From contig PCCY01000021.1 in assembly GCA_002731875.1 (NCBI GenBank), forward strand, positions 584,048 through 648,047: a stretch of DNA of 64,000 nt, given 5' to 3'. This document shows, piece by piece, positions 40,672-60,035 of the stretch. The stretch is from Roseobacter sp. (GTDB lineage Bacteria > Pseudomonadota > Alphaproteobacteria > Rhodobacterales > Rhodobacteraceae). The notes under the pieces were generated by a model. That model searched no databases. It was given only the letters and a program-made list of their open reading frames with translations, and was not told where the DNA came from. The translations under genes and the position numbers were made by a program. Position 1 is the stretch's first letter, and every line of letters starts with the position of its first letter.

Positions 40672-40845
40672 TTATCTGTCCTAAGGTTTGAGCGCCACAA
40701 CGGCTGCTACATTGACACGGTTTAGTACGACCCTTACATCGCCCTATGGGCGCGGCTTGACGTACGTTCAGTCTTGTATCTAGGGGCTGTATGGCGGCTC
40801 GGCAAGCAGATGACGCCTCGCAACATAACTTCGGCAGGAGATTGC

Positions 40846-43677: not shown

Positions 43678-43947
43678 ATGCCATTGATTGATAACTTCAG
43701 CGATTACAGCTCTGGTCTAAGCGGGCCGATTTGTGGTGGCTTTGACATTACTCCCAGCGACGCTGATGAGATTTCGCAGGTCACGCGCGCGATTATGGTT
43801 TCGCAATCCGGCGATCTGTCTGTGGAGCTGAAAAGCGGGGACGCGATCGTGCTGAAAAATCTGATCCCCGGGGCCGTTTATCCGTTCCGTATCAGCAAGG
43901 TTTTATCTACTGGAACGACCGCGACCGGAATTACGGGCCTGGTTTAA
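43678..43947 (+). CDS. Spike base protein, RCAP_Rcc01079 (GhsA) family
   Basis: 89 residues. The sequence fits the small spike-base family named after R. capsulatus Rcc01079: GGFDITPSDADEISQVTRAI, VSQSGDLSVELKSGD, NLIPGAVYPFRISKVL and the ending STGTTATGIT, which is the family's recognisable TGTTA-G signature. In R. capsulatus GhsA with GhsB forms head spikes of the gene transfer agent that bind the capsule. No phage or GTA structural cluster is adjacent; the gene stands alone between secA and a convergent sugar transferase. Its GhsB-like partner is 15 kb away. Recognition is from memory of the family pattern. Confidence 0.78.
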   Translation: MPLIDNFSDYSSGLSGPICGGFDITPSDADEISQVTRAIMVSQSGDLSVELKSGDAIVLKNLIPGAVYPFRISKVLSTGTTATGITGLV

Positions 43948-43991
43948 TTACAAAGCCGCTCGGAATGATCCTTGGATCTTTTCGAGCGCGC

Positions 43992-44651
43992 TTATTGCCC
44001 GGTGGCCCTGAACACAGCCGCTATCGTGCGAAACAGCAATACCAGATCCCCAAACATCGATATGTTGTGAATATATTGCAGGTCCAGACGAACGCGGTGT
44101 TTGAAGCTGACCTTGCCCCGACCGCTTACTTGCCAAAGCCCGGTAATTCCGGGACGCAGGCTCAGATAATCGTTGGCGGCATCTCCGTAGCGCGACAGTT
44201 CGCCAAGAGTTACCGGGCGTGGCCCGACAAATGACATATCCCCTCTAAAGACGTTCCAGATTTGTGGTAACTCATCCATGCTGGTGGCGCGGAGAAACCG
44301 ACCAAATCTTAACACTCTGGGATCATTCTTCAGTTTTTGACTGTGACGCCATTCGTGGGCGAATTCAGCGTTTACCTCGAGCGCGTTATTAAAGATGGCG
44401 TCAGCCGCAGGCTCCATCGTGCGGATTTTCAGACAGTTAAACGTCTTGCCATGCCTGCCCACCCGCGGATGCGCGTAGAATCCCCTATTTCCATTTGCAG
44501 TCGAAATAACCCAGAGCATTGCGATCAATGGCACCGCAAGGGGTATCAACGCGAGACAGAGGATGACGTCAAAAAGTCGCTTGCCGCAATTTGAATATTG
44601 AAAAACGTCTGCCGAACCGTAGCGTCTGGGGGAAATATCCAGAAAAGCCAT
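43992..44651 (-). CDS. Undecaprenyl-phosphate sugar phosphotransferase (ExoY/WbaP-like initiating enzyme)
   Basis: 219 residues. One membrane helix (about 25-50, KRLFDVILCLALIPLAVPLI) followed by the catalytic region: KIRTM, DPRVLRFGRFLRATSMDELPQ split over about 115-135, GDMSFVGPRPV and LRPGITGLWQVSGRG. It transfers a sugar-1-phosphate to the lipid carrier to begin exopolysaccharide repeat units at the inner membrane. GGTG precedes ATG 44651. Next to the YjbH/Wza group on the other side, supporting a surface polysaccharide role. Confidence 0.92.
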   Translation of the reverse strand: MAFLDISPRRYGSADVFQYSNCGKRLFDVILCLALIPLAVPLIAMLWVISTANGNRGFYAHPRVGRHGKTFNCLKIRTMEPAADAIFNNALEVNAEFAHEWRHSQKLKNDPRVLRFGRFLRATSMDELPQIWNVFRGDMSFVGPRPVTLGELSRYGDAANDYLSLRPGITGLWQVSGRGKVSFKHRVRLDLQYIHNISMFGDLVLLFRTIAAVFRATGQ

Positions 44652-44743
44652 TTAATCACCTTTGCAAGTAGAGACAGATGAGGACTGTCGCCACTTAAGC
44701 AAGAGGGCACTAAATAATGATTAAATGACCTGATCTTCCTGGG

Positions 44744-45469
44744 TCAAGCGTAGGCGAAATCCACCTCGCCTTCGTGGATGGTCGCCGCAGTTAGCTTACC
44801 CGTGGCATAGGCACCTGTGTCAATCGATACAACGCCTCGGTTAATTCTGGGAGAATCGAAAATGGTATGCCCATGAACGACCCACATCCCATCGGTTCTG
44901 GCAACACGGCCAAAGTCTTTGTGGCCCCAAAGTAAAGTACGATTGTCTTGCTGTTCGATGGGCAAAGACGGGTCGGCTGCTGCGTGTAGAAAGACCACAT
45001 TGCCCGACACCCAATATTTGGGAAGGTTGGTCAGCCAATCAAGCAAATCTTGCCCCATCGCAGCGAAAAGTGCATCCCGCGCGCCCTCCAGGTCCTCACC
45101 CGTTGAGGTTTGTGAGACGCCGGTAACCGCAAAGCTTTCCAAGGTCTGCAATCCGCCGTTTCGCAACCAGCGTGGCCCGTTGTCCAATGGGTTTTGCAGG
45201 AAATTCAACATCATTTCCTCGTGATTCCCCATCAAGGTAATCACGTTTGTCGCCTTGCACATGTGGCGCAACACCTGTGCGCTTTCCTCTCCGCGATCGA
45301 TCATATCGCCCAGACAGACCATCTGAACGCCTGACTTGGCCTCCGGTATTTTTTTAAGCAAATCGTAACGTCCGTGAATATCACCTATCGCAACGACCGG
45401 TTGGTCAGGACTAATCGGGGCGAAGTGCGGTTCGGTATCTTTGGGTCGCTTAAACCATCGTTGAAACAT
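44744..45469 (-). CDS. Calcineurin-like serine/threonine or dinucleoside phosphatase
   Basis: 241 residues with PPP-type motifs GDIHGRY (29-35), GDMIDRG (54-60), GNHEEM (81-86), a HAAADP region and VVHGHTIFD near the C-terminus. This set is shared by bacterial PrpA-like protein phosphatases and ApaH-like enzymes; both are possible. Start ATG 45469 has GGA upstream at 6 bases; the open frame to 45589 is not supported. Divergent from the yjbH gene, so it may share the intergenic control region. Confidence 0.85.
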   Translation of the reverse strand: MFQRWFKRPKDTEPHFAPISPDQPVVAIGDIHGRYDLLKKIPEAKSGVQMVCLGDMIDRGEESAQVLRHMCKATNVITLMGNHEEMMLNFLQNPLDNGPRWLRNGGLQTLESFAVTGVSQTSTGEDLEGARDALFAAMGQDLLDWLTNLPKYWVSGNVVFLHAAADPSLPIEQQDNRTLLWGHKDFGRVARTDGMWVVHGHTIFDSPRINRGVVSIDTGAYATGKLTAATIHEGEVDFAYA

Positions 45470-45608
45470 TTGTTTTCCATCGTTTGTGTGTTGCAAAACT
45501 GGCGCAACGACTTGGTAAGTTCGAAAAACCGGAAGTCCGCAAAGTGAACTCCATTTTAATATTCTATACAGTCTCGATATTAACAACAATTAGTAAGTAG
45601 GTCCGCAG

Positions 45609-47732
45609 ATGCAAGGGCGTCCGATTAACAGAGCTTCTGCAACCCTTATTGCGGCTATTGGAGCGCTTGCCGCGCCGCAAGCTTCAGCGCAATCGTTGAC
45701 GACATACGGTACCCCCGGCCTGATCGAGATGCCAACCGCCGAGGTCATGCAAGACGGGGATTTGGCATTTACCGCCAGCGTATTTGGGCCAAACTTTAGA
45801 TACACCGGCGCATTCCAGGTGTTGCCACGGGTTTACGGCGGTTTCAGATATTCGCAGATCAAGAACATCAACGGCGCTACAGGCTATTTAGGGGGCGACA
45901 CGTTCGACCGAAGCTTTGATATGCATTATCAAATCTTCGATGAAACCTCACGCCGTCCTGCGGTTGCAATCGGACTGCGCGACTTTCTGGGAACCGGTAT
46001 TTTAAGCGGTGAGTACTTTGTCGCAACCAAAAGCTTTGGGTCCAAGCTGGAAGTGACCGGCGGTCTAGGATGGGGCCGGTTAGCTGGAAGAAATTCTTTT
46101 TCTAACCCGCTTGGTGCCATCTCTGACCGCTTTAAAACCCGACCAGCAGGCTTCACGGGTAGGGGAGGGCAGATCGAAGCGGGCAACTGGTTCCGCGGCC
46201 CTACTTCGCCATTTGCCGGGGTGAAATGGAAATTCAGTAATCAGACAACTCTGTTTGCTGAGTATTCCCCGGACTTGTATGTGCGTGAATCTGTGAATAC
46301 CGGTATTAACGTCTCCTCTCCGCTCAAATTCGGTATCGAATATCGCTTTAAGAACGGTCCGAAGCTTAAGGGATACCTGATAGGGGGACATGAAATAGGT
46401 GCCCAGCTTAGCTATGTGATCAATCCGAAGCGACCTCGGATTTCGGGCGGATTGGAAACCTCGCCAAGAGTTGTTGGAACCCGGGATCGCCTTGCCATAG
46501 CGGATTGGAATAATTCGGCCAAAGGGGGCGGCAAGGCCGCAGTTCAACGCGTTGTCGCCGCTCGCCTGTCAGAAGATGGGATGAAGCTTCAGGGTTTCAC
46601 CATGAGCGGAAACAAAGCGACCGTACGGGTCGAGAATAACCGATGGATCAACGAATCCCAAGCAGCGGGGCGGGCGGCTCGTGTTATGGCAACGACTTTA
46701 CCCCCCGAGATAGAACAGTTTACCGTGGTCTTCCACGAGCGCGGCGTTCCGATAAGCCGTGTCGTAACTCAGCGGTCAGACCTGGAGGAGCTTCAGTTTG
46801 ACTATGACGGCGCGTGGCGTACGTTGGCGCGTACCGATATTGCCGATGCGTATGACCAAGGCCGTGTGGGTGAGCTGGATGACGTCTATCCGGTGATCGA
46901 AACCTCGTTTGGTCCGTATCTTGCGACCTCGTTTTTCGACCCTAACAGCCCCATCCGTGCCGATTTTGGTGCCCAGCTCAAAGCAGCATACCGGCCCGCG
47001 CCCGGGCTGACGTTTTCGGGAAGGTTTCGGTATCCGCTGATCGGCAATATCGACAAATCTTTCCGCGGTTCAAATTCGGTTTTGGAGCCTGTCCGAACCA
47101 ACGCAGTAAAATATGCCAAGGAATCCAATCTCGAAATCAACACGCTATCCGCAGAATATATTTTCCGCCCTGGTAAGGACCTGTTCGGCCGGGTGTCTTT
47201 TGGTTACCTCGAAAGCATGTTTGGTGGCATATCGGCCGAACTGTTATGGTATCCCATTGCCAGCCGATTGGCATTGGGTGTCGAGTTGAATTATGTCAAA
47301 CAACGTGATTTCGACATGCTGCTCGGCTTTCAGGACTATGGGGTCACGAGCGGACATGCCTCGGCATATTACGATTTCGGCAACGGCTTCACGACGCAGA
47401 TTGATGTCGGTCGATATCTGGCCGGCGACTACGGCGCGACCTTGGGCATCGACCGCGAATTCAACAACGGCTTCAAGGTTGGGGGGTTCTTTACGCTCAC
47501 CAACGTATCGTTTGCTGATTTCGGAGAGGGATCATTTGATAAAGGCCTAAGGTTTGAAGTCCCGGTATCGTGGTTGACCGGGCGCCCGTCACGGAAAACA
47601 ATCAAACAAACCATCAAACCAATTACCCGTGATGGGGGTGCAAGGTTGGCGGTGACAAACCGACTGTATGGATTTGTGACAGATTACCGGGGCGCGGAAT
47701 TGCGTGATGGCTGGGGGAGATACCTGAGATGA
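45609..47732 (+). CDS. YjbH-family outer-membrane exopolysaccharide protein
   Basis: 707 residues, as expected for the YjbH domain. Signal peptide (cleavage after ASA near 27), then repeated amphipathic strands typical of a beta-barrel, with family segments TYGTPGLIEMPTAEVMQDGD, GYLESMFGGISAELLWYP and NYVKQRDFDML. Known YjbEFGH systems make extracellular polysaccharide in enterobacteria. The stop overlaps the yjbF gene (ATGA), making a yjbH-yjbF-wza operon. Confidence 0.88.
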   Translation: MQGRPINRASATLIAAIGALAAPQASAQSLTTYGTPGLIEMPTAEVMQDGDLAFTASVFGPNFRYTGAFQVLPRVYGGFRYSQIKNINGATGYLGGDTFDRSFDMHYQIFDETSRRPAVAIGLRDFLGTGILSGEYFVATKSFGSKLEVTGGLGWGRLAGRNSFSNPLGAISDRFKTRPAGFTGRGGQIEAGNWFRGPTSPFAGVKWKFSNQTTLFAEYSPDLYVRESVNTGINVSSPLKFGIEYRFKNGPKLKGYLIGGHEIGAQLSYVINPKRPRISGGLETSPRVVGTRDRLAIADWNNSAKGGGKAAVQRVVAARLSEDGMKLQGFTMSGNKATVRVENNRWINESQAAGRAARVMATTLPPEIEQFTVVFHERGVPISRVVTQRSDLEELQFDYDGAWRTLARTDIADAYDQGRVGELDDVYPVIETSFGPYLATSFFDPNSPIRADFGAQLKAAYRPAPGLTFSGRFRYPLIGNIDKSFRGSNSVLEPVRTNAVKYAKESNLEINTLSAEYIFRPGKDLFGRVSFGYLESMFGGISAELLWYPIASRLALGVELNYVKQRDFDMLLGFQDYGVTSGHASAYYDFGNGFTTQIDVGRYLAGDYGATLGIDREFNNGFKVGGFFTLTNVSFADFGEGSFDKGLRFEVPVSWLTGRPSRKTIKQTIKPITRDGGARLAVTNRLYGFVTDYRGAELRDGWGRYLR

Positions 47733-48436
47733 TCATACGTGCAACCACCTTGGGCCTGTTATTTCTAAGTGTCGCGGCCTGTAGCAATAGTCAGGGCCTG
47801 CTGAACCGAGGGGTCGCTCTTGTCGTGAATGACAAAACGACCGCGGTGAGTCCGGCAGGGCAGTTTCCGCCCCGTTTTGCGGCGCTGGTAGCGGATACGT
47901 CGGTCCCGGCGATGATAATGACTGTGGAACGTCGTTCGCAATCGGGCCGTCTGCTGCGTGAGGCAAAGGTTAACGGAATAGAAACCTGGGTCAGTTCAGA
48001 TTTGACAGCAGTGATGTTGGAAAACGGTATGTTGCAAGGAACACGTGGGTTGGGGTCTGAATTATTTGCGGCTGAGCTATCCGAGCCGATGGCCCTGATC
48101 CTATCTGGCAAGACAGGCTATTCCAGCCGGCTACACAGCAACCTGAAAGGCGACAACCGAATTGTCACCAGAACGTTCAACTGTTTGGTCGAAGCGAGCG
48201 GTACCGAACCCGTAACCCTTGAGATCGGTACAATTCCGACACGTATAATGACGGAAGACTGTAAAAGTCTGGACCAAGCATTTCGAAATACCTATTGGGT
48301 GGGTAGAAAAAGCGGCACAATCGTGCAAGCGCGACAATGGGCTGGCGACGAAATAGGGTATATCAAGACCCAATCTGCAACCCGCGAAATGAGAGTGGCA
48401 CCAGAATCCGAAGTCGGGGTGGTGATAAGTGAGTGA
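47729..48436 (+). CDS. YjbF-family (GfcB-like) lipoprotein
   Basis: 235 residues. Lipobox VAAC with Cys18 predicts a membrane-anchored periplasmic or outer-membrane lipoprotein. The body matches the YjbF/GfcB pattern in RRSQSGRLLREAKVNGIETW, TRGLGSELFAAEL and the conserved final part NTYWVGRKSGTIVQARQW, where WVGxxSGxIxxSxQW is typical. GfcB and relatives belong to capsule or group 4 polysaccharide operons. Overlaps yjbH by four bases. Confidence 0.86.
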   Translation: MIIRATTLGLLFLSVAACSNSQGLLNRGVALVVNDKTTAVSPAGQFPPRFAALVADTSVPAMIMTVERRSQSGRLLREAKVNGIETWVSSDLTAVMLENGMLQGTRGLGSELFAAELSEPMALILSGKTGYSSRLHSNLKGDNRIVTRTFNCLVEASGTEPVTLEIGTIPTRIMTEDCKSLDQAFRNTYWVGRKSGTIVQARQWAGDEIGYIKTQSATREMRVAPESEVGVVISE

Positions 48437-48451
48437 ATGGGAGAGTTTCTA

Positions 48452-49810
48452 GTGCGATACCTTTTGCTGGCCGTTTTAGGTCTGAGCCTTGCCGGTTGCG
48501 GTTCTGTTTACCGGGCACCTAAAGTGGTGGATGGGGACGCCCGCGGGACCAATGTTCGAGTAATGGCACTAACCGCCGAAACAGTTGTTCAGGCGAACAA
48601 ATCGGCATATGCACCCCAGACCCTCCCTGCGGTGTTTTCCCAGACCACAGGGACCGGCGCGGGTCTTAGAGGCACAGGTGCGTTACCTTCCCCGACCATT
48701 GAGAGTCAAAACCGCCCCAATGCGCTCGAGCTACGTTTGCCGCCACCGTCCGATCCGGGACCATACCAGATCGGAGTAGGCGATGTGGTTCTGCTTGCCA
48801 CACCACGATCCGCGACTTCGGTCGAGCAGCTTTCCGGTCTGCTGGCCGCGCAAAATGCGCGACAGGGCTATACTGTTCAAGATGACGGTTCGATAAACAT
48901 CCCGGATGTGGGACGTGTGCGTATCGCAGGTCTGACGATCGAAGACGCCGAAGCGGCGCTGTTCCAGAAGCTGGTCGAAAACCAGATTGATCCGACATTC
49001 AGCCTTGAAATTGCCGAATTTAATTCTCGCAGAGTGTCCATTGGCGGTGCGGTGAGCAAACCCACCGTAGTCCCAGTAACCCTTACACCATTATACTTGG
49101 AAGAGGCTTTGGCCGCTGCCGGCGGTATCACTGTAGCGGATCAGGATTATGCTTCGATCCGCCTCTATCGTGACGGTGCATTGTATCAAATTCCATTGAT
49201 GGAGCTTTATTCCCGCGTCGGCCTGAAGAAGACTCGACTGCTTCCCGGGGATTCTATTTTCGTGGATACGGAATATTGGCTGAACCGCGCTCAAGAGTAC
49301 TTCACCCAGCAAATCGCATTGACGCAGGCGCGTCAACAATCAAGACAAGTTGCTTTGCAGCAGCTTCAGGTAGAGGTTGCGTTGCGGCGCGCTGATCTTG
49401 AGGAAGCACGAACCAATTATCAAACCCGTATCGATTTGGGCGCAGACAACCGACAGTATGTATATCTGACTGGCGAGGTCGAGAAACAATCCCGGTTCGC
49501 GCTGCCTTTCGAGCGAAAAGCCAACTTGGCCGATGCCCTGTATGACGCTGGGGGAATTGCTTCGGCGACCGGAGATGTCTCGCAGGTATATGTATTACGG
49601 TCGTCATCTGACCCTCGCGAACTTGGGGCGGTAACAGCTTGGCATTTAGACGCGAGAAATGCTGCTAATCTTGCTCTGCTTCCGCATTTCGAGCTTCGCC
49701 CCGATGACATTATCTTTGTAGCACAACAGCCTGTTACGCGTTGGAGCCGCGCAGTCACACAGATCGTGCCGCAAATTATCAACGCAGGCGCTACACTGAC
49801 GCGACGGTAA
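48452..49810 (+). CDS. Wza-like polysaccharide biosynthesis/export outer-membrane lipoprotein
   Basis: 452 residues from GTG 48452, chosen because GGGAGAG is 6 bases upstream and it gives a clean lipoprotein signal (MRYLLLAVLGLSLAGC, Cys16); ATG 48437 is the alternative. A polysaccharide-export domain (about 105-180: YQIGVGDVVLLATPR, VQDDGSINIPDVGRVRIAGL) is followed by SLBB domains (about 185-270 and 345-430) separated by a charged coiled-coil segment (about 285-335). It would form the outer-membrane translocation channel. A terminator-like hairpin follows. Confidence 0.9.
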   Translation: MRYLLLAVLGLSLAGCGSVYRAPKVVDGDARGTNVRVMALTAETVVQANKSAYAPQTLPAVFSQTTGTGAGLRGTGALPSPTIESQNRPNALELRLPPPSDPGPYQIGVGDVVLLATPRSATSVEQLSGLLAAQNARQGYTVQDDGSINIPDVGRVRIAGLTIEDAEAALFQKLVENQIDPTFSLEIAEFNSRRVSIGGAVSKPTVVPVTLTPLYLEEALAAAGGITVADQDYASIRLYRDGALYQIPLMELYSRVGLKKTRLLPGDSIFVDTEYWLNRAQEYFTQQIALTQARQQSRQVALQQLQVEVALRRADLEEARTNYQTRIDLGADNRQYVYLTGEVEKQSRFALPFERKANLADALYDAGGIASATGDVSQVYVLRSSSDPRELGAVTAWHLDARNAANLALLPHFELRPDDIIFVAQQPVTRWSRAVTQIVPQIINAGATLTRR

Positions 49811-49832
49811 ATACGCTGGTTGGTGATCGGTC

Positions 49833-49858
49833 AAAGGTCGGGCCTTGGTCCGGCCTTT
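49833..49858 (+). terminator. Probable terminator after the yjbH-yjbF-wza operon
   Basis: A 9-base stem with one G-T wobble (49833-49841 with 49850-49858) and an 8-base loop, ending CCTTTA with only a short T run. It lies 22 bases after the wza-like stop. Confidence 0.55.
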
Positions 49859-49998
49859 ATCGTGCTGAATATGCGCTGTCTCGGATTGTCGCGCTAATAA
49901 AAACAATCCTGTCCCTTAATTGAACCAATAGTTGCCCAATTTCGGCCACATCGCCCGATTATGTTTTGAAAGGTCAGTAATCGTGGCGGAGCCCCGTA

Positions 49999-50949
49999 AT
50001 GTATCTTTCAGTTGTCATTCCTTGCATGAACGAAGAATCGTCTATTCCCGGACTGGTCGCGCGTCTGACGCAAGCGATTGGACCATGGAGGGACCGTGCT
50101 GAAATTATTTTGGTCGATGATGGATCGACCGATGCGACCTGGCAGGCGATCGAAGCGGCAAGAGCCGTGTGCCCGCAGGTGGTCGGATTAAAGCTTTCGG
50201 GAAACCGAGGTCATCAAATTGCGCTGACAGCCGGATTGGAAGCGGCGCAGGGCGATAGAATCTTTATGTTGGACGCGGATCTTCAGGACCCACCAGAGTT
50301 GTTGACCGATATGATGTTCATGATGGATCGGGGCTTTGACGTAGTTTATGGGCGCCGCAGCGAACGTCGAGGCGAAACGCTGTTCAAAAAGGTCAGCGCG
50401 CATCTGTTTTACCGCTTCCTGAATGTGATGTCCGACGTACCGATCCCGCAGGATACGGGCGATTTTCGCCTGGTTAACCGTCGGTCACTGGATGCCGTTC
50501 TGGCGATGCCGGAAAGGGCGAGGTTTATCCGGGGCATGTTTGCCTGGGCCGGGTTTAAACAGGTAGGGATTGAATATATTCGCAGCCCTCGTGAGATGGG
50601 AGAGACCAAGTATCCGCTGCGTGCGATGGTCCGTTTTGCGATTGATGCCATGACGGCATTCTCAACCAAACCGCTGAGGCTGGCCACGCGACTATCCTTT
50701 GTAAGCCTGCTAATGGCGGCGCTGATCGGCGTATATGTTGTCTATTCACTTATCATTTATCAGACAGCACCGGGCTGGGCCTCTGTGGTGTTGGCAATCA
50801 GCTTTTTTTCCGGCGTGCAGTTACTGACGCTTGGTATTTTGGGTGAATACATCGGGCGATTGTATGTCGAAGCAAAAAACCGGCCTTTGTACTTTGTAAG
50901 CGAGGAAGCGCGTGACATTGCGCCCGTCGCCCAAAGGTTGCGCGCCTGA
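49999..50949 (+). CDS. GtrB/DPM1-type glycosyltransferase (family 2), bactoprenol-linked
   Basis: 316 residues. GT-A catalytic domain with VVIPCMNEE, D40 in VDDGSTD, D92-A-D94 in LDADLQDPPE and a QDTGDFRL motif; two membrane helices near 230-255 and 265-290. This is the architecture of GtrB, which moves glucose from UDP-glucose to undecaprenyl phosphate. GGAG is 8 bases before ATG 49999. First gene of a four-gene run (with gtrA, a methyltransferase and a GtrII-like glucosyltransferase), all overlapping. Confidence 0.9.
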   Translation: MYLSVVIPCMNEESSIPGLVARLTQAIGPWRDRAEIILVDDGSTDATWQAIEAARAVCPQVVGLKLSGNRGHQIALTAGLEAAQGDRIFMLDADLQDPPELLTDMMFMMDRGFDVVYGRRSERRGETLFKKVSAHLFYRFLNVMSDVPIPQDTGDFRLVNRRSLDAVLAMPERARFIRGMFAWAGFKQVGIEYIRSPREMGETKYPLRAMVRFAIDAMTAFSTKPLRLATRLSFVSLLMAALIGVYVVYSLIIYQTAPGWASVVLAISFFSGVQLLTLGILGEYIGRLYVEAKNRPLYFVSEEARDIAPVAQRLRA

Positions 50950-51353
50950 TGCCCGTATTTCGCCAAAAACTGGTGCGGTTTTCCTTGGCCGGTCTTGCTA
51001 CAGCAGCAGTCTACACGTTGCTTTACTTGGGTTTACTGAAGCTTGGGCTGTCACAGGTTATCGCCAACGGCACTGCGTTCTTGATCGCGGTCATATTCCA
51101 ATATCTCTGTCAGGCGGCTTTCACTTTCGAACGCAAGCTGTGCGACGCAAATCAGATCATTCGATTCGGTGTCATGGTTTGGTTCGGATTTCTGACATCG
51201 ACCCTTATCACCGGACCAATGGCGGCGCTGTTCGATCTCGCTGACTGGACGGCCGCGGTGCTGGTGATCGCGCTCCTGCCCCTCCAAAACTTCGCTATTT
51301 TGACTCTCTGGGTTTTTGCATCGACCTCTTCCAAAACGGAAATGACATCATGA
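50949..51353 (+). CDS. GtrA-family membrane protein (lipid-linked sugar flippase)
   Basis: 134 residues with four predicted membrane helices (about 8-30, 35-58, 73-95, 103-122), the GtrA layout, with the conserved N-terminal RFSLAGLATAAVYTLLY and FQYLCQAAFTFER. GtrA proteins are thought to flip undecaprenyl-phosphate-sugar to the periplasm. Overlaps the GtrB stop by one base (TGATG) and the next gene by four (ATGA). Confidence 0.88.
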   Translation: MPVFRQKLVRFSLAGLATAAVYTLLYLGLLKLGLSQVIANGTAFLIAVIFQYLCQAAFTFERKLCDANQIIRFGVMVWFGFLTSTLITGPMAALFDLADWTAAVLVIALLPLQNFAILTLWVFASTSSKTEMTS

Positions 51354-52123
51354 GCCATATTTATAATGAAACGTTCTTTGATTACATCAACGCAAGTGCC
51401 CGCGCCTCTGCAAAGCCGTTGGTTGCGTTGTTATTTCCGAAGCTGAAGCCGTCGAGTGTGATTGACCTGGGCAGTGGGCGTGGCGTGTGGCTGGAACAAT
51501 GGCAAAGCGCTGGCGTTGATACGGTTTTGGCTGTCGATGGTGACTATGTGAACCGTGATCAGTTGGCAGTGGCCCCAAGCGATTTTCTGGCTGCCGATCT
51601 GACTGCACCCGTCACGACCCCACACCGCTATGATCTTGCTCAAAGTCTTGAGGTCGGTGAACATTTGCCTACAGAGGCCTCTGAGACGCTGGTGGACAGC
51701 CTGACGAAAGCGTCAGACCGGGTGTTGTTTTCCGCGGCGGTGACGGGACAGGGTGGCGAATTTCACATCAACGAACAGCCGTTGTCCTTTTGGCAGGATC
51801 TGTTCGCTGCACGGGGATACGTCGCCTTCGACTGTGTCAGACCTCATCTGAAAAACGCGAAGGGCGTGGCACCCTGGTACCGCTATAATTCGATCCTGTA
51901 TGTTAACGCAGCGGGGCGCGAGGGCTTGCCGATGGATGTGCTGGCAACCGAGATTCCCAATGGGACACGGGTCAAAAATGCGGGGAATCTTGGCTGGCGG
52001 TTACGGTTGGCTGTTGTCAGAATTCTCCCTCGCGCGGTGGTTACATCTATCGCGCAGCTACGCGCAACCGTTTTAGCAATGCTTGCACGACGCTCAAAAT
52101 CTACCGCGCGCCTGTCCGCATGA
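51350..52123 (+). CDS. Class I SAM-dependent methyltransferase in the gtr cassette
   Basis: 257 residues. SAM motif I VIDLGSGRGVWLEQW, then AVDGDYV and the post-I LAQSLEVGEHLP, typical of the Methyltransf_23 kind found in polysaccharide clusters. The C-terminal part has a hydrophobic basic stretch (about 215-245) that may touch the membrane. Its position inside the gtr overlap chain suggests methylation of a sugar or lipid-linked intermediate; that is inference. Confidence 0.82.
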   Translation: MSHIYNETFFDYINASARASAKPLVALLFPKLKPSSVIDLGSGRGVWLEQWQSAGVDTVLAVDGDYVNRDQLAVAPSDFLAADLTAPVTTPHRYDLAQSLEVGEHLPTEASETLVDSLTKASDRVLFSAAVTGQGGEFHINEQPLSFWQDLFAARGYVAFDCVRPHLKNAKGVAPWYRYNSILYVNAAGREGLPMDVLATEIPNGTRVKNAGNLGWRLRLAVVRILPRAVVTSIAQLRATVLAMLARRSKSTARLSA

Positions 52124-53562
52124 CATTGGCAGAAAAACTATCGCACGAATACCCGAGCCGGTCTCAGCATCTTGCGTTGGGGTCGACCTTTCTGGTGATA
52201 CTGGTGAGCGTCATGATTATGTCGGGCCTCAATCTGGCTGATCCGATGATCCGCCATGATGACTATCCTGCGCTTTTTGCTGACGCCCCTGCATTTTGGA
52301 ACAAGACTCTGCATGAAGGACGATGGCTGAATTATATCTGGCACCTGCGTGAAGCCATAACCCCGGCTTGGTTGAATTTTGCAGTTTATCAAACCTCTTG
52401 GGCTTTATTCGTTGCCGCGCTTGCAGTTGTATTTACAGGCCCCAAGGGTGCGAACTGGTTCACTGTGGTATTGGCGTTACTGATGATGGTATCGCCGTCC
52501 GCCATGTTGATTTCAATGTGGTTCAATACGTTGATGCCAGGACTTGCGATTGTCGCCCTGTTTGCAATGCTGGCATGTCGTGTCTCGGGCAGAACATTAC
52601 GCGTTCTACTGCCGGGTTTCGTGATTATCAGCTTCATGGCCTACACCACGTATCCGCTTCTATTGTTGGCAGTATGCATTGCCAAAACCGAAGATCGGTC
52701 GCCGCGAGATCTGTTCGGGTTGATGCTGCTGTTTTGTGCCAGCTTTGCCCTGGCAGTGGTGACTGTTTATGCGATCAATTGGCAGGTTCACGGTGTTTTC
52801 GGAGTTCCGGTCGCCAACTGGCGCGAGCCAACCGCCGCCCACGGCCTTGCCGGTATAATCGCAAACCTGCCCAAACTTTGGGAAACTTTCCAAATCGTGT
52901 TTCACAGGAATGGGTTTGGTTTTGCACCGCTAATCGGGTTCATTCCGGCAATGCTGGCGGCCGCATTTGTCGTCTTTTACAAATATGCGAGGCTTGAGGG
53001 GCTGTATCTGATGGCGGGCCTGTCAGTGGGAATTGCATTGGTCGTGGTTCAGGTTCTCAAGCTTGGGGTCATCGTGCCCCCGCGTGCGTTCATCTTTGCA
53101 TGGGTATTTGCTGCAATGGCCATGGTGCGTGCCGTAGAAATTTTAAGTCAAACCGAAGGGTGGGCGGGACGCATGGGCCGCAATGCGATCCTTCTGATTG
53201 TCGGCGTATACTTTATTGAAATCTTTATGTTTTACGGACAACACAACGATTGGCGGGCAGATACCAAACACCTTGCGCAGGAAATTTCGAAAACCGATGG
53301 CGACGTCTTCATATACGGCGATTCGTCGCAAATTGCCTCTGCCAAGAAATCAGGTATCCAATCGTCGAAGGCGCTTCCGTTTCGATTGCAACAACTCACA
53401 GGCCGTCAGGCGATCAATTGCCTGGAAACGCCGGACAAATGCCCACAACAGCCCCAGCTGATCAATGCAGGCACCGGTGAAATTCATGTGCGGCGGACCA
53501 GTAGGGGTCTATTTATGATATTCACGCCGTCAGACGATACCAATCTAGCTGAGCCCTTGTGA
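52120..53562 (+). CDS. GtrII-type glucosyltransferase domain protein, polytopic
   Basis: 480 residues with about 9-11 membrane helices. After the first helix comes the acidic periplasmic motif MIRHDDYPALF followed by NKTLHEGRWLNYIW, the pattern of GtrII-like transferases whose Asp residues take part in adding glucose from undecaprenyl-phosphate-glucose to O-antigen or capsule. The C-terminal part (about 365-480) is soluble. It overlaps the methyltransferase by four bases and the convergent kinase by 18 bases. Acceptor polysaccharide unknown. Confidence 0.82.
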   Translation: MTLAEKLSHEYPSRSQHLALGSTFLVILVSVMIMSGLNLADPMIRHDDYPALFADAPAFWNKTLHEGRWLNYIWHLREAITPAWLNFAVYQTSWALFVAALAVVFTGPKGANWFTVVLALLMMVSPSAMLISMWFNTLMPGLAIVALFAMLACRVSGRTLRVLLPGFVIISFMAYTTYPLLLLAVCIAKTEDRSPRDLFGLMLLFCASFALAVVTVYAINWQVHGVFGVPVANWREPTAAHGLAGIIANLPKLWETFQIVFHRNGFGFAPLIGFIPAMLAAAFVVFYKYARLEGLYLMAGLSVGIALVVVQVLKLGVIVPPRAFIFAWVFAAMAMVRAVEILSQTEGWAGRMGRNAILLIVGVYFIEIFMFYGQHNDWRADTKHLAQEISKTDGDVFIYGDSSQIASAKKSGIQSSKALPFRLQQLTGRQAINCLETPDKCPQQPQLINAGTGEIHVRRTSRGLFMIFTPSDDTNLAEPL

Positions 53563-54471: not shown

Positions 54472-54511
54472 AACTAGCCTCGTTTTATAGCGTCTAATGA
54501 CATTTAGGCTA

Positions 54512-54523
54512 GTTAGCGCTAAC
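54512..54523. promoter_or_regulatory. LacI-type operator palindrome between divergent genes
   Basis: GTTAGCGCTAAC is a perfect 12-base palindrome with the AGCGCT core typical of LacI-family sites. On the kinase side a TATAAA sequence (54484-54489 reverse strand) is about 23 bases closer to the gene, so the palindrome would cover the upstream part of that promoter. No LacI gene is in the window. Confidence 0.6.
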
Positions 54524-54609
54524 GGTCCACACCGAACTTATGCAGTTGTTTCGAAAATGCCCCCGGTTAAGATGCCGCTATTCAGGATGCGGCCTGTCGG
54601 GGGACAAAA

Positions 54610-56202
54610 ATGGAATTTGATTATATCATCGTGGGCGGCGGTACGGCTGGATGTGTCTTGGCAAACAGGTTGTCGGCCAACCCCAAGGTAAGTGTGCTGC
54701 TGCTCGAGGCAGGAAAAAGCGACAATTATCACTGGGTGCATGTGCCCATCGGCTATCTTTATTGCATCGGCAACCCCCGTACCGACTGGATGATGAAAAC
54801 TGCGCCGGAACCGGGTTTGAATGGCCGCACCCTAAGCTATCCGCGCGGGAAACTGTTGGGAGGCTGTTCGTCCGTAAACGGTATGATCTACATGCGGGGT
54901 CAGGCCGCCGACTATGACGGATGGCGACAAATGGGTAACGCGGGGTGGGGCTGGGACGATGTGCTGCCGTATTTTCTAAAAAGTGAAGATCATCATGATC
55001 CTGACCAACCGCATCATCGCGCGGGCGGTGAATGGAAAGTCGCGCGTCAACGGTTGCGTTGGGAGGTACTCGAAACTGTACAGCAAGGCGCGAAAGAATT
55101 CGGAATAGAGCCTACTGCCGATTTTAATGGGGGCACGAATGAGGGGTCTGGTTTTTTTGAAGTGAACCAGAAAAACGGGGTGCGCTGGAACACCACAAAA
55201 GCGTTCTTGAGACCGGCCATGAAGCGCAAAAATCTGAAAGTGATGACCGGTGCATATTCCCGTCGGATAATGATCGAAGGCAAGCGCGCGGTGGGGGTCG
55301 AGTTTGAGCGTGATACACAGGTTTCGCAGGCGAAGGCGCGCGCCGAAGTCATTTTGGCGGCGGGAGCGATAAATTCGCCAAAACTGCTTGAACTGTCGGG
55401 TATCGGGCAAGCGGATCGATTAGCAAATTTAGGAGTGCCAGTTCATCACGAACTGAAAGGGGTGGGGGAGAACCTCCAAGACCATTTGCAGATACGTACT
55501 GTTTACAAAGTCAGCGGCACCAAGACCCTAAATGAAACGGTAAATAGTCTCTGGGGCAAGATTAGAATTGGTCTGGAGTACGCTACGACCCAAAGCGGCC
55601 CTCTCTCCATGGCTCCGAGCCAATTCGGAATGTTCACCAAAAGCGACCCCAGCCTTGAAACTCCCGATCTTGAATATCACGTTCAACCGCTTTCTACCGA
55701 TAAGCTGGGAGATCCGCTTCACCCCTTTCCGGCGATTACGGTGTCAGTCTGTAACCTGAGACCTGAATCGGTGGGCCACACCCATATTAATGACCGTGAT
55801 GTGACCCTACAGCCTGATATCCGGCTGAATTATCTTAGCACAGAGCGTGACAGAATGGTGGCGGTGCAATCCATCAAACAAGCGCGGCAATTGATGACCG
55901 CCAAGGCGTTGAGAAGATACGCGCCCGAGGAAATGTTGCCCGGTACCCACATTGCGAGCGACGAGGATCTGCTGCGAGAAGCCGGAAACATCGCCACGAC
56001 GATTTTTCATCCGGTCGGTACATGCAAGATGGGCAGTGACGATAAGGCAGTGGTCGATGCGCAGCTTAAAGTACACGGGATCGAGGGGTTAAGAGTGGTG
56101 GACGCGTCAATCATGCCTAAAATCGTTTCCGGCAACACTGCTTCGCCGGTTATAATGATCGCCGAAAAAGCCTCAGAAATGATCCTTTCCGACGCGCGGT
56201 GA
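54610..56202 (+). CDS. GMC-family FAD-dependent oxidoreductase (choline/alcohol dehydrogenase type)
   Basis: 530 residues. FAD-binding VGGGTAGCVLANRLS (8-22), GKLLGGCSSVNGMIYMRG, AGAINSPKLLELSGIG and the C-terminal active site HPVGTCKMG with the later NTASP. It is the size and layout of bacterial choline or alkanol dehydrogenases; the substrate cannot be told. GGGGGA precedes ATG 54610. Shares the LacI-type palindrome with the fructokinase-like gene, hinting at polyol or sugar-alcohol oxidation, which would join the two functions. That is inference. Confidence 0.88.
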   Translation: MEFDYIIVGGGTAGCVLANRLSANPKVSVLLLEAGKSDNYHWVHVPIGYLYCIGNPRTDWMMKTAPEPGLNGRTLSYPRGKLLGGCSSVNGMIYMRGQAADYDGWRQMGNAGWGWDDVLPYFLKSEDHHDPDQPHHRAGGEWKVARQRLRWEVLETVQQGAKEFGIEPTADFNGGTNEGSGFFEVNQKNGVRWNTTKAFLRPAMKRKNLKVMTGAYSRRIMIEGKRAVGVEFERDTQVSQAKARAEVILAAGAINSPKLLELSGIGQADRLANLGVPVHHELKGVGENLQDHLQIRTVYKVSGTKTLNETVNSLWGKIRIGLEYATTQSGPLSMAPSQFGMFTKSDPSLETPDLEYHVQPLSTDKLGDPLHPFPAITVSVCNLRPESVGHTHINDRDVTLQPDIRLNYLSTERDRMVAVQSIKQARQLMTAKALRRYAPEEMLPGTHIASDEDLLREAGNIATTIFHPVGTCKMGSDDKAVVDAQLKVHGIEGLRVVDASIMPKIVSGNTASPVIMIAEKASEMILSDAR

Positions 56203-56211
56203 GCGCTGATT

Positions 56212-56736
56212 TCAGATAGCAGACGTAAAAATACTTTTCATATGTTCGTCGAGGTAAATTCGAAGCCAAGGCGTGAAACGCTCGGGGTGTTCACGAGTCT
56301 GGCGGGCCAGATCATCCAGATCCACCCAAGCAGTTTCCATTACCTCGGTCGGGTCGGGCACGATGAACGTCGAGGCGGTTGCTTCGCCCACATAAATATC
56401 GACAAGCTCGTGTTCGATCAAACCGCCGCCCACATCGGCGCGATATTCGACCCTATCGCGGTGATGTAGGTGCAGACCGATAATCCCGAGCTCTTCTTGC
56501 AGTCGCCGCTGGGCGGTCGCCAGTGCGGGTTCGTCCCAATGAGGATGGGTGCAACACGCGTTGGCCCACAGGCCGGGTGTGTGATACTTTTCCAACGCGC
56601 GCCGTTGGATTAGAGTTTCATTGTTTCGCATCACGAACACAGACACCGCTTTATGTCGCAGGCCGCGCTGGTGAACCTCTAGCTTTTCTACGGGGGTAAG
56701 CGCTTCGTTTACCCAAGCGGGGATCAATACCGTCAT
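56212..56736 (-). CDS. idi: Isopentenyl-diphosphate delta-isomerase (type I)
   Basis: Interconverts IPP and DMAPP for isoprenoid synthesis. 174 residues with the NUDIX-like fold; catalytic cysteine C62 in ANACCTHPHWDE, the LQEELGI acidic motif and the conserved GLWANAC and EHELVDIY segments. In Rhodobacteraceae idi often lies near bacteriochlorophyll/carotenoid genes; none are here. AAGG is about 10 bases before ATG 56736. Convergent with the GMC gene. Confidence 0.95.
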   Translation of the reverse strand: MTVLIPAWVNEALTPVEKLEVHQRGLRHKAVSVFVMRNNETLIQRRALEKYHTPGLWANACCTHPHWDEPALATAQRRLQEELGIIGLHLHHRDRVEYRADVGGGLIEHELVDIYVGEATASTFIVPDPTEVMETAWVDLDDLARQTREHPERFTPWLRIYLDEHMKSIFTSAI

Positions 56737-57008
56737 AGAGCTGTGCCTTTTTTATGCTTTTGGCAGATACGTCACATCATCGACCCTGATTCAGGTGGAT
56801 GGTCAGGCTACCCTCGGTAAAGCCATTGTACCCGCTTAAGACCGAAATGTCAGCCGCTGATATAGTATACGCATGTGCCTATTTACCCTAAGACAAGCTT
56901 CCATCGGCAAGGGTGCGTTGTATCCGGCCTTGATCGTATCCGACACCAGCCCGATCTGCGCCGCATGAATATAGCCGTCAGACATGACAGGCACGCGCAT
57001 GAACAATG

Positions 57009-57690
57009 TTGAATAGGGGCTGATTGGATAACGTCGTCATACCGCACGAACGTATTGCGTAACAGATCCTGTATATGCTCCGAGGCTTCGGACAGAGACA
57101 GGACCGGCGCATAGCAAGCGTCCTTACCGACCATAAGTGCACCGCAATCAGCACGGGTGTTTATCTTAATGACTGCTACAAGCTTCTCTCGCATCAAATC
57201 CCGATGCCGGGGATCGATTTGAGGATAGACTTCCGTAGCGTCTGCATGTTCTGCAAGGGCAAGCAGTTGAACATAGACCCGTGGTACTATTGCCCCAATA
57301 GAGCCGAAATTTTTCGTCCTTGGTTTCAGCGACGTTACAAAAAAGCACCTCGGAATCCAACTTTCCTATCAGTGGAGTAGGATTTTCACCTTTTGCGGCC
57401 AAAAGCATGCAATGCCCTGCTGAGCGCGATGTCATTTATATCGTGGCCGGCCCTCTGCGCATAAGGCCCTGTCTGGCCACATCCTGTCATTCGGCCATAG
57501 AAATGGTTGGGGTCAATGCACACCACATCATCGGGGCTTGAGCCTAACCGTGCCATCACGTCCTGTCGGAACCCTTGCACCAACCGATCAGCGGTCGCGA
57601 TCAGGTCACGTAACGCCGATATGCCCTTTTCCGATTTCAGGCCGACAGCGATGCGTGTGCGAGACCGCAGCAAGATATCCAATGCGGCGT
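57009..57690 (-). pseudogene. Decayed CaiB/BaiF-type CoA-transferase (alpha-methylacyl-CoA racemase-like)
   Basis: Three fragments in different frames read in order on the minus strand. The first (about 57682-57390) has LLRSRTRIAVGLKSEKGI, DDVVCIDPNHFYGRMTGCG and AGHDINDIALSRALHAFG. The second continues with GENPTPLIGKL. The third (about 57197-57009) has MREKLVAVI, TRADCGALMVGKDACYAPVL and SLSEASEH. The first about 45 residues and much of the middle are missing and at least two frameshifts are needed. The active-site Asp region (GHDIN) survives, but the gene cannot be functional. Next to an intact enoyl-CoA hydratase, so it was probably part of a branched acyl-CoA degradation pair. The remaining 56737-57008 holds only an unassigned open stretch. 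Confidence 0.82.
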
Positions 57691-57723
57691 AACCCCACTC
57701 AGGGGCCGGCCTTGAATATTTCC

Positions 57724-58497
57724 TCAGTCAAAATTCGCTTTTCGCTTTTCAAGAAAGGCCGCTACACCTTCTGCAAAGTGCGGATGCCGGCCCGCGGCGC
57801 CTTGGGCGCTACTTTCTGCGGCGAGCTGAGTTTCAAAACTGGCATCGCCCGCGGCCCATAGCAGCTTGCGCGTCAGTCCCAATGCATGGGTCGGACCCTT
57901 GGCAAGGCGTTTCGCATATTCTTGCGCGGTGGACATAACGGCAGCGTCTTCTACAACCCGTGTTATCATTCCCCAGTCAAATGCCTGCTGCGCCGGGAGT
58001 TTTTCCCCCAACAAGGCAAGTTCGGCGGCACGCACGCGGCCCACATTCTGCACCAGCATCCAAGTCGCGCCGCCATCGGGTACCAAACCGATATGACAGA
58101 AAGCTTCGAGAAAATAACTGTTTTGTCCCGCAATAACGATATCACCCGCCATTGCGATCGAGGCACCAATACCCGCGGCGGGACCAGAAATGGCGGTAAT
58201 CAGCGGTATGTTCAGATTGCGAATGGTCAACATAAGCGGGTTGTATGCGTGATCCAGTGCAGAACCCGCATCAGAGTTCTGCAAATTGCTATCCCCGTCA
58301 CCTTGTAAATTTGCACCCGAGCAAAACGCACGCGATGATCCGGTCAGTATCACCACGCGGCTGCTTGTTTCAGCGCTGGTCAGAGCATCCGCAAGCGCTT
58401 TTGCCAACGTTGGTGTCAATGCGTTCAGTGTACCGGGGTCGTCGAGCGTAATCGTGGTGATTTGATCCGAGGTTTCTATTTTCAGGCCGTGCGTCAT
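57724..58497 (-). CDS. Enoyl-CoA hydratase/isomerase family protein
   Basis: 257 residues, crotonase fold. CoA-binding ILTGSSRAFCSGANLQGD, oxyanion hole GPAAGIGASIAMAGDIVIAG and the FCHIGLVPDGGATWML segment. The exact reaction (hydration, isomerisation or a PaaG-like role) cannot be told; the catalytic glutamates of classical hydratase are replaced here by other residues (HIGLVPDGG), which fits the isomerase subgroup better. GGAG is 8 bases before ATG 58497. Neighbour of the decayed CoA-transferase. Confidence 0.88.
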   Translation of the reverse strand: MTHGLKIETSDQITTITLDDPGTLNALTPTLAKALADALTSAETSSRVVILTGSSRAFCSGANLQGDGDSNLQNSDAGSALDHAYNPLMLTIRNLNIPLITAISGPAAGIGASIAMAGDIVIAGQNSYFLEAFCHIGLVPDGGATWMLVQNVGRVRAAELALLGEKLPAQQAFDWGMITRVVEDAAVMSTAQEYAKRLAKGPTHALGLTRKLLWAAGDASFETQLAAESSAQGAAGRHPHFAEGVAAFLEKRKANFD

Positions 58498-58640
58498 TTT
58501 GGGGTCTCCTGTTTGCCGGCAGCAAAGCATTGATTGGAGGCCCAGGCAAACGCCAGATGATCGACCGGCGTTATAACAGGTGGTTAACTCCTTTGGCTCA
58601 GCTTCGGAATTTGCGGATAACCAACTGACGGAGCCAGATT

Positions 58641-60035
58641 GTGACCGATACCTCGCCCATTTTAAAGATGCCCTACATACAGCCCTCGCAAGCCCAAAAG
58701 CATGTCACCCATAATGAAGCGTTACGGTTGCTGGATGCCATTGTTCAGCTTGTGGTGCTGACTCATGATCAGAATTCGCCCCCGGCCACGCCCGAAGAAG
58801 GGGGCAGTTATCTGGTTGCTGAAAATGGCCAAGCTGCCTGGGCAGGGCAGGACCAAAACATCGCGGTATTCAGCGACGCTGCTTGGCGATTTATCGTACC
58901 GAAAGAGGGATGGGTCGCGCAGGTGGCGGGAAAGGACAACGAGGTGGTGTTTGACGGGTCGGTGTGGAGAGCACGTAGGCTGGGCAACGTTGAGGGTCTA
59001 GGAATAGGGGCGGACTATGATGCGTATAATCGGATGGTCGTGTCTTCGGATGCGGTACTTTTGAACAACGCCGGGGCAGGTCATCAGGTCAAGGTTAACA
59101 AAGCGACCGCAGCCGATACAGCCAGTCTGGTATTTCAAACCGGGTTTAGCGGGCGGGCTGAGCTTGGATTGGTGAATGATGACGACTTCGCATTGAAGGT
59201 CAGCAGTGACGGCGTGGTCTGGACAGAAGCATTGCGGGTCGATGGAGCAACGGGACAGGTTACAACAGGCGTGGCAGGCTGGCGCGAGGTGCTGACCGGG
59301 CCGCGCAGCTTCTTTGTCGATGCCATACAAGGCAGTGACACCGGAAGCGGGATGGGGCAAGCCTCGGATGCGTTCGCGTCATTGTCCAGAGCACTGGCCG
59401 CGGCTCTTGGTCTAGATACCGGAGGCCACGATATTACCATTGAGATTGCGCCGGGCACCTATGCTTTGGCAGAGGTTTTAAGTGTTGGAACGGGATTAAT
59501 AGGCGGTGGTAAGTTAATTATTCAGGGAAACAGCGCCGACCCGGACGCAGCAACGATCGAAGCGACCGAGAGGGCAATCGTCGTATCGTCAGGTCAAGTG
59601 TTGTTACGGCGGGTGCGACTGCAAAATTCGAGTACCGCAAACGCCGTGGTAACCGTTGCAAGACATGGCGAGGTTATTCTTGATGAGGTAACTTTCGGGC
59701 CCGCAGGCGGACATATGGACATTGCAGGTGGCCGGGTTGTTCTTGGGGGCGGTTATGCAATTAAGGGAGGTGCTGCCTATCACCTGCGTGTCTCCGAAGG
59801 CGGACTGTACGATGGATCAGCTCAACCCGTCACACTGCAAGACATCCCATCATTCAGCGACGCATACATCAACTGTTCAGAAGGAAGTGTCGCGCGAATT
59901 TCCGGACAGGGTTTTACCGGAAATGCGACGGGTAAGCGATATGATCTCTCGACCAACGGTGTCATTGTTGCTGGTGGGAATACTCTGCCGGGCGATATGG
60001 CAGGCACGACCCAGACGGGAGGGCAATATGCGTGA
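58641..60035 (+). CDS. DUF2793 protein, GhsB-like GTA head-spike fibre with beta-helix
   Basis: 464 residues. The N-terminal part (about 1-115) is a DUF2793 domain: LKMPYIQPSQAQKHVTHNEA, LLDAIVQLVV, PEEGGSYLVA, WAGQDQNIAVFSDAAW and GWVAQVAGKD. The R. capsulatus GTA spike protein GhsB (Rcc01080) belongs to this family. After a linker, about 215-464 show repeated short strands (GSDTGSGMGQASDAFASLSR, IEIAPGTYAL, GGKLIIQGNS, QVLLRRVRLQ, GEVILDEVTF) of a right-handed beta-helix, a fold used to bind or cleave polysaccharide. No catalytic residues can be assigned. CGGAG lies 7 bases before GTG 58641. Confidence 0.82.
   Translation: MTDTSPILKMPYIQPSQAQKHVTHNEALRLLDAIVQLVVLTHDQNSPPATPEEGGSYLVAENGQAAWAGQDQNIAVFSDAAWRFIVPKEGWVAQVAGKDNEVVFDGSVWRARRLGNVEGLGIGADYDAYNRMVVSSDAVLLNNAGAGHQVKVNKATAADTASLVFQTGFSGRAELGLVNDDDFALKVSSDGVVWTEALRVDGATGQVTTGVAGWREVLTGPRSFFVDAIQGSDTGSGMGQASDAFASLSRALAAALGLDTGGHDITIEIAPGTYALAEVLSVGTGLIGGGKLIIQGNSADPDAATIEATERAIVVSSGQVLLRRVRLQNSSTANAVVTVARHGEVILDEVTFGPAGGHMDIAGGRVVLGGGYAIKGGAAYHLRVSEGGLYDGSAQPVTLQDIPSFSDAYINCSEGSVARISGQGFTGNATGKRYDLSTNGVIVAGGNTLPGDMAGTTQTGGQYA

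Follow-up and report, generated by a model that had tools for sequence, protein, structure and literature searches.

The DNA studied here (the window) is a 64-kb stretch of the 4.13-Mb genome G000 (contig C21:584048-648047), whose host is a Sulfitobacter-type marine bacterium of a genus that includes Roseobacter sp. GAI101 and Sulfitobacter sp. HGT1. It contains two genes, at 43678 and 58641, which a sequence-only reading had taken for GhsA (Rcc01079) and GhsB (Rcc01080), the head-spike proteins of the Rhodobacter capsulatus gene transfer agent (GTA; RcGTA for that of R. capsulatus), set among genes for surface polysaccharides. By our analysis, the first is a spike-base gene without its ghsB partner and the second is a tail-fibre gene. 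Below, G numbers denote the genomes compared, L numbers denote individual loci or stretches, "the subclade" is the window's Sulfitobacter subclade, and passages of published papers are cited by PMC number.

Two GTA-family genes in a surface-polysaccharide region

The gene at 43678..43947 (+), present once in its genome, encodes a protein of 89 amino acids (aa) that matched the NF048002 profile ('spike base protein, RCAP_Rcc01079 family') at 98.7 bits, against a cut-off of 28, and the solved Rcc01079 chain 6tb9 at an E-value of 5e-9. These matches uphold the earlier assignment: by homology, the product is the GhsA/Rcc01079 spike base.

The gene at 58641..60035 (+), also single-copy, encodes a 464-aa protein with a DUF2793 N-terminus and a beta-helix tip (about residues 219-464). 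The fit to DUF2793 (PF10983, 102 bits against a cut-off of 27) is as previously described, but the view of DUF2793 as the family of GhsB is contradicted. In the passages cited, DUF2793 is given as the RcGTA tail-fibre family (PMC10883770) and as a domain at the N terminus of rcc00171 (PMC8265664). Pfam did not find it in the four GhsB-position proteins tested (two from Sulfitobacter, one from a more distant phage-like locus and a partial one from R. capsulatus SP108); the sole DUF2793 protein of SP108 does carry the domain. Rcc01080 binds its base through an N-terminal Ile/Leu-Gly peptide, and the N-terminus of the 58641 product, which reads VTDTSPILKMPYIQPSQ, contains no such base-binding peptide. 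The gene lies about 15 kb from ghsA, not directly downstream of it. Residues 5-122 of the product align by sequence with a baseplate-tail complex protein of roseophage R4C (8gtc), and the N-terminal fold of its predicted model, whose confidence is modest (56-64) across the first 40 residues, placed 8gtc_T at Foldseek rank 1 (E-value 9e-4; 92-96 columns, 31-32% identity). Because DUF2793 is the tail-fibre family and is absent from the GhsB-position proteins, and because the base-binding start peptide is missing, GhsB was ruled out for the 58641 product, and just one of the two genes is a head-spike homologue. We assign the other, by homology, to the GTA tail fibres of Rcc00171 type. This corrects a family name that annotators could otherwise go on repeating: DUF2793 marks the tail fibre, not the head spike. 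Over 56 residues, the tip shows 36% identity to part of the GhsB of a sister species. Only the 7999 best candidates were scored when homologues of the C-terminal part were sought. The AlphaFold model of a relative's GhsB, with a mean pLDDT of 60, was too poor to draw on.

A search for the main GTA cluster located it elsewhere in the genome, on contig C4. It is of RcGTA type and comprises terminase, portal, HK97 protease, HK97 capsid, RcGTA_tape, distal tail, hub, peptidase and megatron genes; the megatron scored 1894 bits, the terminase was recognised through Pfam only, and one (136 aa) of the ten open reading frames (ORFs) tested there had no NCBIfam match. In the window itself, no phage structural gene appeared among the ORFs scanned, a scan that did not cover every ORF, and to that extent the earlier statement that no other GTA or phage gene is present holds. 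Across the genus, GTA_TIM occurs in 37 of 40 genomes and DUF2793 in 32 of 36; the figure for the spike base is 11 of 36. DUF2793 is missing from G014 and G025, each with a GTA_TIM fragment only, from G017 (87% complete), with none, and from G001, with a full GTA_TIM.

The described setting of a sugar transferase, a YjbH/YjbF/Wza-like export group, a gtr cassette, a capsule permease and a sulfotransferase is borne out by Pfam and PHROG matches. Left of ghsA lies secA (40774..43542 (+); NF009538/TIGR00963 SecA, 1233 and 1071 bits), which is the left neighbour of the orphan ghsA in the subclade. To the right follow genes for an initiating polyprenyl-phosphate sugar transferase (Bac_transf, here PST; 43992..44651 (-); PF02397, 194 bits), a calcineurin-like phosphoesterase of the exopolysaccharide (EPS) region (44744..45589 (-); PF00149, 45.5 bits), a YjbH-type EPS protein (45609..47732 (+); PF06082, 677 bits), a YjbF/GfcB-type lipoprotein (47729..48436 (+); PF11102, 92 bits) and a Wza-like polysaccharide export protein (48437..49810 (+); PF02563 (Poly_export) and SLBB). 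The joint presence of YjbH, YjbF and Poly_export proteins fits, by Pfam, a locus of the EPS export type. The gtr cassette (49999-53562 (+)) consists of a GtrB-like glycosyltransferase of family GT2 (49999..50949 (+); PF00535; phrog_841 GtrB-like, 313 bits), a GtrA-like membrane protein (50949..51353 (+); PF04138, 51 bits), a methyltransferase (51350..52123 (+); PF13489, 27.3 bits, barely over the cut-off of 27) and a closing 480-aa protein (52120..53562 (+)) for which Pfam, PHROG and NCBIfam gave no match at the chosen cut-offs. Through its phrog_841 match, the first gene of the cassette resembles the GtrB proteins of phage O-antigen conversion, which as a class modify surface sugars. Beyond the tail fibre come an RTX calcium-binding protein (60148..62649 (+); PF00353, 14 stretches), a KpsM-like ABC-2 permease (62684..63466 (-); PF01061, 52.6 bits) and a sulfotransferase (63490..63999 (-); PF13469/PF00685) that continues past the window end, where an ABC ATPase (PF00005) read as KpsT and a KpsE-read protein without a Pfam match follow. 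About 32 kb from the tail fibre, a ComF-family gene (25330-26451 (+)) scored below its curated cut-off; comF (rcc00197) is listed among the genes that RcGTA recipients need for DNA transport (PMC10218006), and its placement here is likely chance or old synteny.

The unpaired spike base and the spike-EPS block of relatives

No ghsB was found beside the window's ghsA: no downstream ORF of at least 180 aa is present at any of the four named loci of the subclade (L090, L092, L097 and L167), and none lies directly after it on the + strand in the window. Among 80 named spike-base loci, 55 have an ORF of 180 aa or more on the same strand that begins no further than 30 bases from the ghsA stop, and 47 of these ORFs have a hydrophobic-glycine start (loose pattern). 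The other 25 loci, the four of the subclade included, have none. At the genome scale, the GhsB of a sister-species block used as query matched in 4 of 60 genomes, the window's own not among them, and the base-binding start-peptide pattern occurred at four places in that genome, none of them a plausible GhsB; consisting of one protein query and one start pattern, this search would miss a ghsB whose start peptide differs and whose body is unrelated. An 89-aa ORF at 43965, starting MILGSF, was considered and dropped, as it overlaps the last part of PST in antisense; in sister genomes, too, little space separates ghsA from PST. One of the four matching genomes, G026, has no spike base that could be detected, and its ghsB-like stretch (C3:142099-142637; L088, L089) is broken by stop codons.

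The orphan ghsA stays under purifying selection. The ratio of nonsynonymous to synonymous substitution rates (dN/dS) was 0.05 for the window's genome against its nearest relative (G000-G005), 0.13 (G013-G012) and 0.05 (G020-G017, with a dS of 1.7); that of ghsB-paired ghsA in sister species was 0.14 and 0.26, and the remaining ghsA pairs are close to or past synonymous saturation. An alignment of all spike bases held no stretch conserved enough for scanning, and apart from a GGAG just ahead of the start, the regions upstream of ghsA had little in common. As a spike base that lacks its fibre, the orphan offers a natural experiment on the function of the base by itself.

The order secA, ghsA, PST, phosphoesterase, yjbH, yjbF, wza runs through G000 and six sister Sulfitobacter genomes. 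In G000, G012, G013, G020 and G034, gtr genes, IDI, DUF2793, RTX and kpsM follow on one contig, the FruK, GMC and ECH genes being absent from that stretch in G012 and G013; G005 has the same right half, split by a contig break that falls within the first gtr gene. GAI101 (G034; L047/L092) carries a second PST, only 33% identical, between secA and ghsA. Half of the ten genus genomes that have both genes carry ghsA and DUF2793 10.8-16.1 kb apart on the same strand of one contig, and the two are 250 kb apart in G010 and on separate contigs in G003, G005, G027 and G030. The distance between YjbH and DUF2793 in the sister species G008 and G015 is 218 and 194 kb.

A core of ghsA-ghsB-wzx-acyltransferase-wzy-like-sulfotransferase is common to 12 genomes (those of the named loci L091, L093, L095, L096, L098, L100, L101, L102 and L117, together with G003, G010 and G030), and its order is kept across several named genera. 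A GumK-like glycosyltransferase was matched between ghsB and wzx in 11 of the 12 (not L100), two group-1 glycosyltransferases follow the sulfotransferase in 10 (L061 has one of them, L053 neither), and PST stands at the far end in seven (L059, L093, L095, L100, L101, L102 and L117); at others, the stretch stops close to that point. Pfam backs the block's wzx, acyltransferase, sulfotransferase, GumK, both glycosyltransferases and a Wzc-like protein; the wzy-like protein matches no Pfam family, so that Wzy is a name by reading. L094 shows ghsA-ghsB-glycosyltransferase and then a contig end. parA/parB-like genes lie beside the block in 4 of the 12 (L053, L061, L100 and L117), suggesting plasmid-borne GTA spike and polysaccharide genes, and because such genes can stand beside them, EPS blocks may move. 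The G010 block lies on a 1.65-Mb contig, and one block carries a Magnetovibrio label (L091), which may be a binning error.

In the window, ghsA (+) adjoins PST (-), an arrangement that resembles the two ends of the ghsA-ghsB-EPS block. In a PST tree of 29 rows, taken mostly from ghsA and DUF2793 loci, the subclade PSTs group together (9 rows, 98/96), and the subclade and block PSTs form a group of 16 rows (90/87, not starred). These data suggest that the block interior, the fibre gene ghsB included, was deleted in the window's subclade and that ghsA probably remained after this loss; the evidence is moderate, as the PSTs compared come mainly from ghsA and DUF2793 loci.

Tail fibres and polysaccharide genes across the family

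To place the tail-fibre gene, we compared 20-kb stretches around DUF2793 in 40 other family genomes (four of the stretches shorter, at contig ends); at least 154 genomes among the 198 listed are DUF2793-positive. The 40 loci were picked by hand from single-copy genomes, mostly of few contigs, and away from contig starts. Another 22 loci comprised 20 from 19 Sulfitobacter genomes, one from G044 and one from R. capsulatus SP108. The control consisted of 40 stretches drawn from 29 of the 40 family genomes, both long- and short-fibre ones; they were positioned blind on the same contigs, at roughly half or a quarter of the coordinate of the tail fibre. Polysaccharide markers were taken from the window, L066 and the ghsA blocks, and linkage was defined as at least one marker within about 10 kb. 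The marker names are mostly Pfam-based, KpsE- and Wzy-like being readings without a Pfam match and KpsT being, by Pfam, just an ABC ATPase.

With all fibre types pooled, linkage was seen at 19 of the 40 family loci, 13 of the 22 further loci and 4 of the 40 control stretches (family versus control, p 2e-4). Short fibres (222-238 aa) cluster as a single group (18 rows, 100/100), every one of them next to a GTA megatron. Long fibres (275-581 aa; 51 rows) have an extra C-terminal stretch, and only two, L077 and L223, stand beside a megatron; these two and the window's subclade are excluded from the long-fibre counts that follow. At least one marker accompanies the long out-of-cluster fibres at 19 of 22 loci of other genera and 13 of 20 of Sulfitobacter plus R. 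capsulatus, as against 0/17 short fibres and 4/40 controls; for the 19/22, p was 2e-9 versus control and 2e-8 versus short fibres. Stricter cut-offs gave 15/22, 13/20, 0/17 and 1/40, respectively, and a threshold of at least three markers at the loose cut-offs gave 10/22, 12/20, 0/17 and 0/40. The frequent neighbours of long fibres are kpsM, kpsT, kpsE, rfbCBDA and manC (rfb and manC named by Pfam). At the strict cut-offs, at least one marker is found at 22 of the 76 named ghsA loci outside the subclade and at least three at 12, compared with 1/40 and 0/40 control stretches, which were not matched to the ghsA genomes (p 3e-4 and 5e-3). A search for ghsA at an E-value of 1e-5 in the 40 family tail-fibre stretches returned none.

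The two exceptional long fibres (L077 on G011:C7 and L223 in G165) each have a divergent megatron next to them, with an identity of about 43-44%, and two GTA_TIM loci occur in G011. Their settings are possibly prophages or a second GTA-like element.

An RTX protein (window 60148-62649 (+); L171:15470-18109) is a repeated companion of tail fibres outside the GTA cluster, in genomes ranging from Sulfitobacter to R. capsulatus: it was found near 8/22 long fibres of the family set and 10/20 of Sulfitobacter plus R. capsulatus, and near 0/17 short fibres and 0/40 controls. The R. capsulatus GTA repressor Rcc00280 has also been proposed to be an RTX protein (PMC13420450). In SP108, the best match of the window's RTX protein is the copy near the tail fibre, the other 18 matches spanning only query residues 330-420. 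Going by locus numbering, this SP108 copy is presumably not rcc00280.

Docking genes, candidate receptor sugars and known systems

Overall, we consider it probable that the region is a chromosomal surface-polysaccharide locus in which two docking genes of the resident RcGTA-type GTA are lodged, away from its main cluster. By homology, the spike base and the tail fibre would be particle parts and their neighbours would make surface sugars. The 43678 product would form the spike base capping the capsid vertices, whereas the 58641 product would dock on the baseplate with its DUF2793 end and recognise, or possibly trim, a surface polysaccharide with its beta-helix tip; the PST/YjbH/YjbF/Wza, gtr and kps neighbours would make, modify and export the candidate receptor sugars. 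A ligand-receptor relation between the docking proteins and the local sugars is suggested by the R. capsulatus system and by the family-wide linkage. With ligand and cell-surface genes together, recombination or transfer would change both at once, and co-regulation is possible; the linkage could thus serve co-regulation or co-inheritance. A comparable pairing is seen in many relatives, so that the key of the particle and the lock of the cell may be passed on jointly. The earlier proposal that the adhesin is co-inherited with the polysaccharide genes gains from the block in 12 genomes, the long-fibre linkage and the R. capsulatus precedent, but the linkage is incomplete and the closeness of ghsA to the fibre is confined to one subclade.

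Several points weigh against this explanation. The nearness of ghsA to a tail fibre in a single subclade is one event, not repeated evidence, and even there G027 has DUF2793, RTX and kpsM on a different contig, with gtr genes not found in the stretches examined. As 25 of the 80 named loci have no long downstream ORF, an unpaired ghsA is not unique to the subclade. RcGTA packages only about 4.5 kb (PMC9690577), too little for a single particle to hold all 15 kb of the stretch. The markers were chosen after the Sulfitobacter neighbourhoods had been viewed, the long/short division was made after the data and neighbourhoods had been seen, and the contrast between long and short fibres is one evolutionary split, since the two types are separate lineages. 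No marker was found at 3/22 family and 7/20 Sulfitobacter plus R. capsulatus long-fibre loci, and only 22/76 named ghsA loci outside the subclade have a strict one.

The main rival, which we regard as unlikely although worth serious consideration, is that variable polysaccharide loci collect out-of-cluster genes, so that the spike-base and fibre genes came to lie there by neutral accretion, without any coupling of ligand and receptor. The gaps in the linkage, the joining of ghsA and tail fibre in one subclade only, and the parAB-like genes that can adjoin EPS blocks all favour it. On the other hand, the R. capsulatus GTA is described as binding the capsule via both its head-spike fibre and its tail fibre (PMC10218006), the ghsA-ghsB-wzx-acyltransferase-wzy-sulfotransferase order is kept across several named genera, and none of the 17 in-cluster fibres has such neighbours, though location alone also yields that last contrast. 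It is improbable, in our estimate, that the orphan spike base has left the GTA and serves another phage or element or a cellular role: the missing ghsB and the occurrence of spike-base genes beside phage genes (L064, with a P22-like portal and a terminase domain) would agree with this, but the purifying selection on ghsA, the RcGTA-type cluster in the same genome and the lack of phage structural genes among the scanned ORFs argue otherwise. Least credible is the original pairing, in which GhsA and GhsB, as parts of one head spike, flank the receptor genes. Both genes do belong to GTA particle families, and the short stretch of the tip that resembles a sister-species GhsB would suit it; it conflicts with the tail-fibre domain that the GhsB-position proteins lack, with an N-terminus that has no base-binding peptide and matches a phage baseplate-complex protein, and with the long ORF directly following ghsA at 55/80 named loci.

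Extended to the Rhodobacteraceae, the docking-locus explanation becomes a more tentative proposal, to which we would give somewhat less than an even chance. GTA docking genes may have moved house to the loci responsible for their sugar receptors: short fibres would stay in the cluster, fibres with receptor domains would lie in capsule or rhamnose loci, and the spike pair would travel as one unit with a Wzx/Wzy EPS block, sometimes beside parAB of plasmid type. Such loci would act as kin-recognition modules, and the window would be one of them after loss of the spike fibre and exchange of the tip for a beta-helix. GTAs are often thought to pay off only when gene exchange stays among relatives. 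If ligand genes share a locus with the receptor genes of the recipient, the choice of recipient would be a heritable, swappable lock and key, and the means by which GTA transfer is confined to kin could be probed by deleting or swapping loci in harmless marine laboratory strains.

In the open-access literature, we found no report of the linkage of tail-fibre and polysaccharide genes, of the spike-EPS block outside R. capsulatus or of an orphan spike base; ectopic loci for receptor-binding proteins are mentioned in a preprint (PMC13420450). A search of papers for the PDB code 8cjz gave no hit. The adjacency of head-spike and capsule genes is already published for R. capsulatus, where capsule genes are stated to adjoin, and to be co-regulated with, the head-spike genes, and where binding to the capsule is reported for tagged versions of both the head-spike fibre and the tail fibre (PMC10218006). 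The window resembles that system (ghsA-ghsB, rcc01079-01080, beside capsule genes rcc01081-01086) in having a spike-base gene next to surface-polysaccharide genes, a likeness drawn from publication for rcc01079-01086, as locus L145 ends just past ghsA. Unlike that system, the window yielded no ghsB, has PST/YjbH/YjbF/Wza as the neighbours of ghsA and carries a tail-fibre gene 15 kb off in the same region. The N-terminal stretch of the 58641 product is like the R4C baseplate-tail complex protein (8gtc chains S/T; named 'Ribonuclease III' by the depositors), but that chain is from a phage, has only 230 residues and lacks a beta-helix tip, and its identity as a fibre is a reading. The tip itself has the beta-helix fold of pectin methylesterase and pectate lyase, at 10-16% identity to the pectin methylesterase rows, a fold that is no proof of enzyme activity. 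With the Rcc00171 tail fibre, the 58641 product shares a DUF2793 N-terminus, a single copy and a place outside the GTA cluster. Likewise, the single DUF2793 gene of R. capsulatus SP108 (L171) lies among kpsM, kpsE, kpsT, rfb and RTX-like genes; the C-terminus of the SP108 fibre matches other tail-fibre PHROGs and falls into a different C-terminal cluster, whereas the 58641 tip is a beta-helix.

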